This document shows, piece by piece, positions 10,302 to 17,761 of a stretch of DNA of 64,000 nucleotides. Origin of the DNA: Apophysomyces variabilis (taxonomy: Eukaryota > Mucoromycota > Mucoromycetes > Mucorales > Mucoraceae); the NCBI GenBank assembly GCA_002749535.1, contig MZZL01000386.1, forward strand, positions 372,001 through 436,000, read 5' to 3'. The position numbers and the translations under genes are program-made. A model generated the notes under the pieces. The model did no database searches. It was given only the letters and a program-made list of their open reading frames with translations, and was not told where the DNA came from. The first letter of the stretch is position 1, and each line of letters starts with the position of its first letter.

Positions 10302-11846
<1,545 letters not shown>

Positions 11847-12933: not shown

Positions 12934-13705
12934 CAGAAGGAACATGACTTGATAGTTTCATCGATCAGTTACTGGAAGTGACCTTGGGATCAAACGAAAA
13001 CTGTTTTTAATATGATCTATGATTTGCCTTCATCAATCGAGCTTACGCTTATGTAAAATTATTTTTGGTGCAAGTCAACCACAAGTTGAGTAGAAGCGAC
13101 CGAGATTTTAGGATTTTTGTTCTGAGCACCTTTGCTACGAACCATTGTACTTGTTTCTAGACTGACAATTAAACAATGTCACTTCGGCAGAAAAAAGCAA
13201 GGAGATAGAGATCGAAGATTAAGCAATAAATGGGTTGTTCACCATTGCTGGACAAGGGAGTTAAATGAGATTGCAACCTGTTTAACCTGCACAATAATTT
13301 GGTTGTATTTCTTTTTTCAAACAAGAAGATGATTAAACTATTCGGGGTACTTGCGCAGGATACAAGCGCCATGAAGGCAAATAAGATAAGATTACAGTTG
13401 CTATGGTGGAACCGGAGCATGGGAAGGACATCGACAGTCTTATCCAATCTGAAAGTGTGTCCCGCATCGCATACTGATTATTGAATCATATTTTGCGCTA
13501 CTGCAAAACAAATTCTGCGCCCATGAAAGCACCAAATTTACGCTAAAAGTAAACTAATTTTATGTCATTAACCAAATCAGTTATGCGGGAAGTACACTTT
13601 GCTTACATGAATCTGATACTTTAGTGGGACACAGAATTCATTCAAGTAGCGAGAAATACAATTCATGGTTAACAAATCGGAAGGGTACATTACTGTCTTT
13701 TTACT
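12934..13705. other. Intergenic region left of the Fanzor locus
   Basis: AT-rich DNA of about 0.8 kb without a supported gene. It contains TTAACCAAATC at 13568-13578 and GTTAACAAATC near 13666, similar to a sequence beyond the other end of the Fanzor gene (16985-16995). No terminal inverted repeat was found by eye. Confidence 0.35.
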
Positions 13706-13760
13706 TACCCCGAAGGTATCCCGCTGCTAAGCGCGGGCACCCACGCCGCACCCCTCCGGG
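13706..13760 (-). ncRNA. Candidate guide-RNA scaffold (fRNA/omega-RNA-like) at the 3' end of the Fanzor gene
   Basis: The last codons, the stop codon and the bases just after it form an unusually GC-rich island within AT-rich DNA. Read on the minus strand, CCCGC (13737-13733) pairs with GCGGG (13724-13720); the inner GC..GC also pairs, leaving a TTA loop and one bulged A, and the TAG stop lies inside this hairpin. Just downstream TACC (13718-13715) pairs with GGTA (13709-13706) around a TTCGG loop. A weak CCC/GGG hairpin lies at 13760-13751. In TnpB and Fanzor loci the guide RNA typically overlaps the 3' end of the gene and the element end, so this is the expected place. The RNA and its ends are inferred; no transcript evidence is available. 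Confidence 0.45.
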
Positions 13761-16643
13761 ATAGACATAAGCGAAGCTAACAGATTATTATCCAGCAAGT
13801 ATTTACTGGCTTTCTTTGGGTTGAACTCCGGGAATGGCTCGTGGTGGTTTGAGAAAAGGGCACTCGTCCCGGCGACAGCAATGTTCAGGGCAGCATTTTG
13901 GTCCCGGTCACGTGAGCCGTACCCTTTCTTCACACTAATGCATTCGGAATTTGTAGAAATGACTGTGCCAAAGTTTTTCTTGATATAGCCATTTTTTTTC
14001 TTGTTCGGGTGGGAGAGAACTTGGTAGCAGAAAGGACACAGTTGAGAAGAACGGAATTCGTTTGTGATCCCCACCGATGTTTGTTGCAAATGTTGCTCTC
14101 TCAATTTCTTCCCACCACACCGGTAATGCCCTCGGATAGGGGAGCACACTCCTGTTTCAGCCGAGCCAGTCATCATAAGTGACATATTGGTCTTCTTCCC
14201 CGAACCATTCAGGAAATTGCGTTCATTCGAAGCAACGGTAGCGTATGCTTTCTGTGTGTATATATCTTGAATGCGTTTTGACTTCTTTATGATTTCTTCT
14301 CCGAATAAAATTTGCTCAATGTATCTCTGTTATCTATCGCAATCTATAATCAGATCTAAGTTAGTTGTTTAGTTCAATAGAACCGTAAAATACTATCTTG
14401 CGATAATTGTGCAAACTGTCGATGTCAACTGCATTTCCGACATTGTCCTTTGACAATTTCTTTTCGATAGCTTTTACCTTCTTTCCCTCTTCGGTCGCCT
14501 GCGATGCAGAAAGAATTGTCATTGCAGCGTAGCTCCACATGAAATACGGCTCTTACCCTTTTCCTATACTCCCTTTGTCTTCTGGCGCGTCTTGTAAAGG
14601 AAAGGTCATCAATTTGTTTCGCAGTGATTTTGAAGGTCTTTGGTATCTTTTGGAAATCTGACGCCAAGTCATCTTCGGTGTCGTCATCCTGAGTCTCAAG
14701 TGCACTGAATCGGTTATGAAGCTTCAGATGGTAGGCAAAACGTTCAATTGGCAAAGAAACCGATTCCGACATTGTGTCAACAACGTAATCGGTGCCGGAA
14801 AACGTGATTCCTGTACATGGATCTTTGGTCATTCCTCTGATATCCATTTTTAAAACGTCATCTTCACATTTGAAACTATTCGCTGTAATTTTCGTCAGGT
14901 CTTTGTCCTTCGTTTTCCGTTTTCTTTTGCGTCCTTTGCTTAATTTTTGATCGCTCTTTTCGATCTCTTCGTCAACGATGGCCTGTAAAAGGGAGACGTT
15001 TTACTTAGCAAGGTTTGTACCAGTAGTCATTTTACCTGGACTGCGAGATACTTGTCGTGTCGAAATTTCTGCAATTTTTTCCGTTCCAGAAGCAGTTTCT
15101 TGTTTTCTTGACTCCTTTCGTTTTTCAAACCATTCCTGACGGCAATAGTATCTATGAGATCTTCTGCATTCGACGTGTTGGATCGACCATCTTTGATAGC
15201 GTTGATTTCTTCCGTCAATAAACATATAGTTTCTGTCCTATCTCTAAGGCTGTTTTCCAATTGCTTGACTTTTCCTGTGGTTTTAACGATATCCTTGCCG
15301 ATGGCTGTAACGGTATCGCTTTCTTGAGCCTTTCGCAAAATCGTTGCTGAAGGCCGTGCATGCTTCTTTTTGCGTTTCTCGTATCCGGGATCTTGCAACT
15401 TTTCTGCTTTCCAACACAGTCCCTTGTATGCTCGTAGAACCATATGATGAAATTTTTAGGACATTGTCAAATTTCAGACCATGTTTGTGGCATGTGCGAT
15501 CTATTCGCTCGAGGTCAAAAAAGGCACCGAGAATGTATTTAGGATTATGGGTGGCATCGGGGCAGCTTGTCATTGTTTTGCCATTTGGGCTAACGATGTC
15601 AAACCCGTCCATGTCGTCTCTGGTACAGCATAATATCTCGAAGGTTGTGGTAGGATTTAAAACAAGGGAATATATGGCCGACGGTCGAACAGCGGGGCAA
15701 ATAGAACGCGTAAATTTCTTGTTATCAGTTATCGTAAAGACTGCATTTGCGAGCAGCACCAAAGGGGCATTCAGCAATGGGTGTCGATCAACAGCAAGCT
15801 CGCCAGTAGGACACAGAACAAAAGGCTTGATGAAGCTATACACGTCTATGACTGCCTCGGCTTCTTTCAGGTTCAACTCGGCAGTGCTAAATTCCTTTTG
15901 TAGCTTCCTCACTGTGATGTTGTCTACCGAGACGTCTTCCAATGCTAATAGCCGCTTTGTTAGAGTTGTTAACCTTTGAAGTCTGGAGTGGCTCGTTTCT
16001 TGGGTTATTTTCCTCTTTTTTTTGAATTCGGCTCTGAAGATGTCGATGCTAGAATAGGGCGCTTTTCACCTGCTTGATGGCTCCGGGATGTTGGCACTTC
16101 CTCTTCCTCCTCTGCTTCCTTTTCGTCATCTTTCGCACCTTTCTGATATTCTTCGTCTTCTTCGTCTTCTTCTCCGTTCCTTTCCCATTCTGCATCTTCA
16201 TCGTTCAACTGGACCTTGTCCATTTCGTCATCTTCTCTTTCCGTAGATGGGTTACTTGCTAGTTCCTTCTGATTGCTCTTTTGTGCAAGTAAATTTGATC
16301 TGGTTGATTTTAGGGTAGCGATAATGGCGGACAGCTTCTGTACACGTGGATCGTCCGCGGATACTCGGTTTTCGAGCTTTCTTAGGCGGCGAGTTTGATA
16401 CTTTATGCGCCAGTCGAGAGTTGCAACTGACGATTTATTCTCGCACCTAGATCATTATATCCTAGTTAGATCTACATGACACGTAAGGAAAGAGTATACA
16501 TACTTTTCATGTTTGTCTTTTCTTTCCTGCTTCCGCTTCCGCAAGTTGTAGCTTTGTCTTTCCCTTTCGCGAGCCAGAGCGAATCGTAATAGCAACAGTA
16601 TGAGTTGTGGCGCCATTCCACATATTTCGACAGGCTGTGGCAT
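13727..16643 (-). CDS. Fanzor: eukaryotic TnpB-like RNA-guided nuclease, with two apparent frame breaks
   Basis: Supported exons on the minus strand are 16643-16504, 16446 to about 16020, about 16020-15036 (two frames), 14982-14557, 14498-14394 and 14326-13727; every junction checked is in phase. Total coding potential is about 890 residues. The N-terminal half is helical, with an acidic stretch (EEDEEDEE) and lysine-rich patches. RuvC-I is TFSGTDYVVDTMSE in the fourth segment. The last exon has GITNEFRSS (RuvC-II glutamate), CPFC and a later Cys (zinc ribbon), and GSRDRDQNAALNI (RuvC-III), the TnpB/Fanzor signature. Fanzor proteins use an RNA guide to cut DNA and spread with transposons. The frame changes at an A8 run (16016-16023) and again between about 15443 and 15285, in opposite directions, so net frame is kept. 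These may be mutations, hidden introns or assembly errors. Similar proteins are also labelled IS605 OrfB-like transposases. Confidence 0.82.
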
Positions 16644-17761
16644 ATTGCCGCAGTTTTGCTATTGAAATTTTTGGGAGCATAAAGAGGAGGCAGACTGTAA
16701 AAGAAACGGGCGATGGGAAGGAAAGGGAAAAAGAGCCTTCTGTGTATATAAAAAAGTAAGAAACCCCAAGAAATAAGCGAAACTCTGATTAATTCTTTTA
16801 TGTGATAAATAATTGTTCTACTTGGATATCTATGATAGAGCGCGGATAATGCGCCGGTTGGGATGGTTACTAACATATTTTGTAAAATCTGAACGATTGG
16901 TGATGATAAGTGGTTCTTCTCACTTTGCTATTCTGTGTCCACCGGTGCCTCAGTAGCACATAGATAGAATAGAATGTTAATGTGTTAACCAAATCTGAAT
17001 GATAATTACAGCCAATACATTCACGGAAGAGTCTGGAGTGATCAGGAAGACCTACCGCTATTAAAACAAAATGTTGGAGATATATCTTAAAGCATATGAG
17101 TCAGGAAAAAGTAGGTTCGGAAGTTCAAAGGAAGTAGAGAAATCCTTCAACCAAGCATACAAATTTCATACACGAGTTGGTAGACATGACTGGTTTTGCT
17201 TTATCACCCAACCACCTTTCTGTTCTTATAGTGCCACTTACTTGAATACACCATAACATAATAAGAGCATACTAGTTTATTCTCATGTTTATCTTAAAAC
17301 TTGGCAAGATTTGGACTACTTACATTGGGGATTCTTCTTTCTAGTTGGCGCAAAAGGCGAAGGTTGCCGAAGAGAAGAGGAAAGATGTGGTTCACACCCA
17401 ACCCTGCTTCTTCCATCGTTTCTTCTGACATCTCCCCTCCCCTCCCCAAATATAATCGATTGTAGTGCGTCTTTCAAGATATGAGTTGAGATGGATGAAG
17501 GAGTTTTTCATTTTATATTACTTTTTCTACGAATAAAGCGCAGTTTTGGGGGATTGTACCACATCTGGAGTTGGAGCAGAGGCAACCAGACTTAGCGTAG
17601 GAACGAACGTTAGGGTATCATATCCGCTGGCGCAAAAGTACTTTTTGGCTGACACAAATTACCTTGCAAGAACCAGTAAATTCTTGTGACTCCCATTTAA
17701 AGTGGTTTTCACTTTTTCTTCGCACCGCGCTACGCGTTTCTTATTCGCCTTTTTCTCACCC
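16644..17761. other. Divergent intergenic region between Fanzor and the proline-rich protein gene
   Basis: A TATATA box (minus strand, near 16741-16755) lies about 100 bases upstream of the Fanzor start. TTAACCAAATC at 16985-16995 repeats a sequence on the other side of the locus. Near the right end TGGCGCAAAAG occurs twice (17346-17356 and 17628-17638), upstream of the next gene. A 61-codon frame at 17071-17256 has no recognisable feature. Confidence 0.4.

Follow-up and report, generated by a model that had tools for sequence, protein, structure and literature searches.

Does the window (by which we mean the whole 64-kb stretch of DNA that was analysed) hold a working gene for a Fanzor, the eukaryotic counterpart of the TnpB nucleases, or the remains of one? 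The first-pass annotation had described an intron-rich, Fanzor/TnpB-like gene of a Mucoromycota fungus on the minus strand, and had regarded it as coherent over its nuclease half. The motifs that it listed, and the order in which it placed them (RuvC-I, RuvC-II, zinc ribbon and RuvC-III), are real when read on the minus strand (Table 1), and introns do lie between the exons as it proposed. Judged from the sequence, this set of motifs is more than chance, and an origin from chance or unrelated open reading frames is ruled out by matches across the genome, by the shared copies of the surrounding element and by the tblastn matches of relatives described below.

Table 1. Positions in the window of the element, its ends, the coding relic and the nuclease motifs
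Feature	Position	Strand	Remarks
Whole element, including TA at each end	13472..17678	minus	about 4.2 kb; boundaries from blastn against 11 other loci and from end sequences
Left terminal repeat with TA (TACTGGTTCTTGCAAGGTAATTTG..)	17653..17678	minus	end comparison
Right terminal repeat with TA (GCGCAAAATATGATTCAATAATCAGTA)	13472..13498	minus	end comparison
N-terminal coding remnant	16543..16680	minus	ATG fused across a deletion of about 1 kb, followed by another deletion that breaks the frame
Exon 2 relic (middle domain)	15036..16446	minus	identity to A and B 27% over the aligned part; frame broken by two insertions
Exon 3, RuvC-I	14557..14982	minus	GTDYV; GTDYG in 8 other copies
Exon 4 (short)	14397..14498	minus	splice donor AT, not GT
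Exon 5	13727..14343	minus	RuvC-II NEFRSS, zinc ribbon CPFC..STNSEC with one Cys gone, RuvC-III RDQNAALNI; frame broken by one deletion close to the exon start
RuvC-I motif TFSGTDYVVDT	14773-14805	minus	
RuvC-II motif ITNEFRSSQL	14039-14068	minus	
Zinc-ribbon CPFC	within 14021-14038	minus	
Later zinc-ribbon Cys	13940-13957	minus	
RuvC-III motif SRDRDQNAALNI	13880-13915	minus	
3' non-coding stretch, stop to right end	13474..13726	minus	about 250 nt; expected place of a guide RNA

A repeated element with TA at its ends

The span that had been taken as the unit of interest (13727-16643) proved too small, the relevant unit being the whole element in which the gene lies. When the window's 200-aa C-terminal frame was compared with the genome it comes from (G000; 38.7 Mb in 126 contigs), 101 matches were obtained. 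At least 12 copies of the element, the window copy included, are present in this genome and all 12 have their ends in common; the other 11 are 90.6-96.5% identical in DNA to the window copy, and at least one extra fragment (C23:198531) matches the C-terminal frame at 90% over 42 residues. Read by eye, TA stands at the right end in 11 of the 12 copies and at the left end also in 11, with L018 offset there by one base, and we infer a TA target duplication. As inverted repeats the two ends agree at 17 of 24 positions; among 200000 24-mers drawn at random from the window, 4 agree as well as this. On the same strand, at 10524-11632, lie exons that resemble acetyl-CoA acetyltransferase in translation and that we take to be a neighbouring host gene.

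By its ends the element is Tc1/mariner-like, and it is apparently non-autonomous. No transposase was recognised by Pfam, at E up to 1, in the ten stop-to-stop frames of the element on both strands, and one locus (L077; G000:C75:557200-557600) is a miniature derivative of about 100 bp that holds only the two ends of the element; given these two observations, mobilisation in trans seems probable. The genome has 171 matches to DDE_3 transposases, and among the related right ends examined there we found no autonomous transposase partner with the ends of the window element. One candidate partner (L075/L080), near which a related right end lies, was rejected because it is a separate 1.87-kb unit with different repeats of 253 bp. 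This unit is itself a Tc1/mariner-like element with an open 461-aa frame containing DDE_3; its inverted repeats are perfect and the two copies are 99.8% identical. A further locus (L078; G000:C59:469500-474300) has a left end nearly the same as that of the window element, with 2 mismatches in 28, and an open reading frame carrying VDPGLN, a DPG-type motif, which suggests that this frame may be a DPG-type Fanzor; Pfam found nothing in two of the L078 frames. From L078 and the window element it seems that Fanzor-like cargoes can differ between transposons whose ends are similar.

Among the 600-nt flanks of the copies, similarity is confined to the right flanks of four copies, where a common repeat lies. 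Four of the 12 copies (L017, L019, L024 and L025) stand 7-9 nt from a repeat starting ACTAGTCC. This repeat is about 980 bp long, its start has at least 40 matches, and its ends look Helitron-like. In 12 of 18 sampled copies (L034-L051) it starts no more than 17 nt to the right of a CNGTA transposon-like end, the background for CNGTA being 228 of 7528 17-mers of the window (3%). A target preference belonging to the window element alone was rejected, since the repeat also adjoins the ends of other elements.

Relatives of the nuclease and their right ends

Three families of relatives, A, B and C, carry long open exons. Two copies of each were compared, and these are 99.5% identical over 5.8 kb in A (L028/L029), 99.9% over 4961 bp in B (L030/L031) and 99.7% over 5.3 kb in C (L032/L033). 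A and B, of which the genome holds about 15 and 12 copies, are open, full-length genes of five exons that encode proteins of 1287 and 1257 aa with a mutual identity of 40.6%, and both keep the D-E-D residues of the nuclease, with the Glu relocated, together with the zinc ribbon. Protein B is the annotated protein EC973_007782 of Apophysomyces ossiformis (100% over the 358 residues searched), which bears out the proposed Mucoromycota host and makes A. ossiformis the very probable species; our gene model and that annotation, which extends to 1285 aa, agree at 1248 of 1251 residues. The ends of family B read ATACC on the left in 10 of 12 copies and on the right in all 12, there followed by G in 11 of 12. 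Given these ends, and flanks that show no mutual similarity among the 12 copies, the B elements are not of the TA type, and the flanks also dispose of a first impression, gained from L031, that family B lies at one of the repeat-adjoined ends described above.

That the window gene is Fanzor/TnpB-like, as had been claimed, is supported by the matches of these relatives to its exons, by a zinc-ribbon profile match below the cutoff and by SpuFz1 as a match of the relatives' profile. In tblastn the family A protein matches window exons at E 3.5e-26, 1.4e-16 and 4.5e-11, and the family C protein matches exon 5 at E 2.4e-15; where aligned to residues 531-721, 950-1041 and 1108-1270 of A, the relic is 27, 35 and 38% identical. 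At E 1e-3 proteins A and B and the C-terminal portion of C have no other match in the 64 kb, so that, as far as these searches reach, this is the sole candidate RNA-guided system in the window.

Against 177,635 solved-structure sequences, and with E up to 10, the A/B/C profile found only SpuFz1 (8gkh), a weak match (E 0.0038) whose alignment spans the relocated Glu, the four-Cys ribbon and RuvC-III. In the same search SpuFz1 ranked first with C alone (E 0.0096) and was not found with B alone. On PF07282 the window exon scored 18.4 bits, the cutoff being 26.3, and its sister L018 scored 11.2; no match to this family was found in the sister L016 or in P0001-P0004, and NCBIfam gave none for the window exon. 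Of the relatives of C, P0010 is above the PF07282 cutoff and P0009 just under it, both being weak on guided_TnpB, and the A/B profile aligns to P0010 with 98% probability over 147 columns. An AlphaFold model of the RuvC part of the relative P0003 was poor (mean pLDDT 52.9), and although SpuFz and GtFz appear in its structural comparison, unrelated helical proteins rank equally high.

An older Fanzor motif definition, D-X(125,275)-[TS][TS]XX-C4-X-RD in the part of PMC3627910 that we consulted, is present in A, B and P0003 in the form D-X(125,275)-[TS][TS]XX-C4 zinc finger-X(5,50)-RD, with a spacing of 204-214, and in the window copy it can be pieced together over separate exons, with one of the four Cys replaced. 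The relocated Glu is found in A and B (D/NEHRSSQ[TL]C), in P0003, P0004 and P0006, and in the window, where the alternative Glu of NEFRSSQLC in exon 5 lies six residues before the first zinc-ribbon Cys; P0002 has Gly at this position, and P0005, P0007 and P0008 do not cover the region. The portion of PMC10711439 used here gives, as a fingerprint found near exclusively in Fanzors, DPG at RuvC-I together with a Glu placed six residues ahead of the zinc finger, and treats D-hydrophobic-G with a relocated Glu as a separate clade. DPG occurs in family C, in its relatives P0009 and P0010 and in L078, and is absent at RuvC-I from the window family, A and B. RuvC-I reads DYG in A, B, P0002, P0003, P0007, P0008 and 8 sister copies of the window element, NYG in P0004 and L023, and DYV in the window itself. 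Since DYG replaces DPG whilst the relocated Glu and the older motif are present, we class the protein as a Fanzor1-like variant and not as one that conforms to the fingerprint.

Between the stop codon and the right end, A, B and the window element all have a stretch of about 250-275 nt. That of the window folds little better than its shuffles (z -0.42 to -1.46), the sisters L016 and L018 giving z of -1.29 and -2.21, and with folding so close to that of shuffles a structured right-end RNA in the window family is unsupported. Nor is this region more conserved between copies than the exons, its mean divergence being 5.65% compared with 4.63-5.61%. The corresponding stretches of A and B (L028 and L030), which are otherwise hardly alignable, have GTCGCTATGAC in common, and the six-pair A/B hairpin GUC-GCUAU-GAC differs on both sides at two positions of its outer pairs. 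The hairpin 11-mer has 50 matches in the genome compared with 8 for a reversed-pattern control; 15 of the 50 are at A copies, 12 at B copies, and 29 follow a Fanzor C-terminal exon on the same strand at a distance of at most 700 nt, as counted with 49 of the 101 exon matches. When 20 loci were scanned, an exact GCTAT hairpin with at least 5 pairs was present in five (L081, L082, L096, L097 and L100), a one-mismatch form in two and neither in 13, and the GCTAT hairpin was not found in the window copy. L081 and L082, which are among the 29, and L097 are A- or B-like DNA, and neither L096 nor L098 matches a Fanzor, so that the evidence for the hairpin comes from two independent families. We regard it as a candidate guide-RNA scaffold in these two families only.

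It could be argued that such proteins are RuvC-like, zinc-ribbon transposon proteins of the TnpB superfamily which are not RNA-guided Fanzors, for example a lineage that lost the use of a guide RNA. DYG in place of DPG, the very large N-terminal part (1257-1287 aa overall) and the lack of a PF07282 match in P0001 would all fit this reading, but the relocated Glu and zinc ribbon are as in SpuFz1, and A and B not only keep the D-E-D residues but have the 3' non-coding hairpin in common. We judge this reading improbable.

Decay of the window copy

The statement that four downstream junctions preserve the frame did not stand up to comparison with the other copies, and what had been called a coherent gene turned out to be a decayed, N-terminally deleted copy inside the repeated, TA-flanked element. 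Measured against the majority state of the 11 full-size copies, of which it is one, the window copy has four indels that break the frame: exon 2 holds two of them, and the first exon and exon 5 hold one each. The fourth splice donor, AT here, is GT in 9 of 11 copies; of the six splice sites inspected from exon 2 to exon 5, five keep GT or AG. About 1 kb, made up of N-terminal coding sequence and intron, is missing; L017 keeps it and L020 keeps part of it, and this gap is common to 9 of the 12 copies. One zinc-ribbon Cys has become Ser, where 8 of the 11 other copies keep Cys, and the RuvC-I Gly has become Val, where all 9 others in which the motif could be read have Gly. An intact gene is ruled out by the frame breaks, the lost donor and the replaced Cys and Gly, and the window copy can no longer encode a full nuclease.

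Comparison with copies elsewhere in the genome, as the first-pass annotation had recommended, did yield 11 related loci, but not one of the 12 copies is unbroken: L026 has lost most of its sequence, and every full-size copy, of which there are 11, carries one or more indels that break the frame. Substitutions in 11 copies (all but L026) were sorted by codon position along 2444 exon columns, in a test that ignores the relatedness of the copies. Those private to one copy number 127/116/128 at the three positions (p 0.70), whilst shared ones number 53/34/74 (p 0.0006) and favour third positions. Read simply, this suggests selection on the source gene during the spread of the family, followed by drift in each copy.

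If the gene in the window were functional, its frame breaks would have to be assembly errors or unrecognised introns. The frames of exons 3 and 5 do run open for 142 and 200 residues, and most of the splice sites survive, but frame-breaking indels occur in all 11 full-size copies, some of them shared and some private, the private substitutions look neutral, and a lost donor, a lost Cys, a lost Gly and a deletion of about 1 kb seen in 9 of 12 copies are unlike one-base errors; we hold a functional gene to be very improbable. That a domesticated, truncated Fanzor has been retained here as a host gene, for which one might cite the long open C-terminal exon of 200 aa, is scarcely credible against the frame breaks, the neutral-looking private substitutions, the element ends and the differing flanks.

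Proposed origin and comparison with known systems

We read the gene in the window as a relic of a DYG-type Fanzor1 variant. We consider it very likely that the locus as a whole is a dead copy of a TA-flanked Mucorales DNA transposon, with Tc1/mariner-like ends and apparently non-autonomous, whose only recognised cargo is a DYG-type, Fanzor1-like nuclease. By analogy with published Fanzors, the ancestral protein would have bound RNA made from the right end of the element and would have cut DNA matching the element's flanking sequence, and such cutting may have helped the element to persist, or to be restored by copying once it had been excised; transposition itself was probably carried out by a factor acting in trans. 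The family would have amplified with its gene under selection and its copies would have drifted afterwards, leaving a window copy that no longer encodes the nuclease. More tentatively, and with a confidence that falls a little short of even, we propose that Mucoromycota carry a distinct Fanzor1 lineage that is still mobile, with proteins of about 1260-1290 aa that have DYG at RuvC-I and a relocated Glu. These would either fall below the cutoff of the standard zinc-ribbon profile or go unrecognised by it, and their guide RNA would be marked by a conserved GUC-GCUAU-GAC hairpin near the right end; in A. ossiformis two families of the lineage (A and B) would be recent or active and the window family dead.

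The window copy itself is ordinary transposon debris and its living relatives matter more. The open genes of these relatives occur in nearly identical copies, which shows that Fanzor-bearing elements have moved recently in a Mucorales fungus, and A and B depart from the published DPG fingerprint of Fanzors. With living and dead families side by side in one genome, there is also a test ground for the benefit that a Fanzor may bring to its transposon. No report of this Fanzor family was found in the literature examined, supplements aside, and our literature search found no paper joining Fanzor with Mucoromycota or with Apophysomyces. The find is less surprising given that Fanzor1 in transposons of Mucor circinelloides, Rhizopus and Phycomyces (MCi, ROr and PBl) has been in print since 2013, as the relevant part of PMC3627910 sets out; PpFz1 of Parasitella, in the part of PMC11423790 available to us, is likewise a Mucorales Fanzor. 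These families resemble the present one, as far as those parts describe them, in being Fanzor1 in Mucorales genomes, some of them in multiple copies.

A close parallel is SPu-1 of Spizellomyces punctatus, the source of SpuFz1, which the consulted part of PMC3627910 describes as a Fanzor-only element about 2.1 kb long, bounded by terminal inverted repeats and by putative target duplications of TA, with a single 633-aa ORF that is intact in 9 of 17 full-length copies. Judged against that partial account, the window element is similarly a Fanzor-only, TA-flanked inverted-repeat element, and its family's protein matches SpuFz1 in sequence over the relocated Glu, the zinc ribbon and RuvC-III. In contrast with SPu-1 as described there, the gene of the window family has introns, its relatives are about twice as long, RuvC-I reads DYG and none of 12 copies is intact. 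The TA at the ends and the short inverted repeats also recall Tc1/mariner elements, although no transposase was recognised in the window element and none of the related right ends examined led to an autonomous partner that shares its ends. Finally, the combination of D-Phi-G with an alternative Glu, which the portion of PMC10711439 cited above assigns to a clade of TnpB, is seen in the window family too; unlike that clade, however, the window family is intron-bearing and fungal, and the sole solved-structure match of its profile is a Fanzor1.
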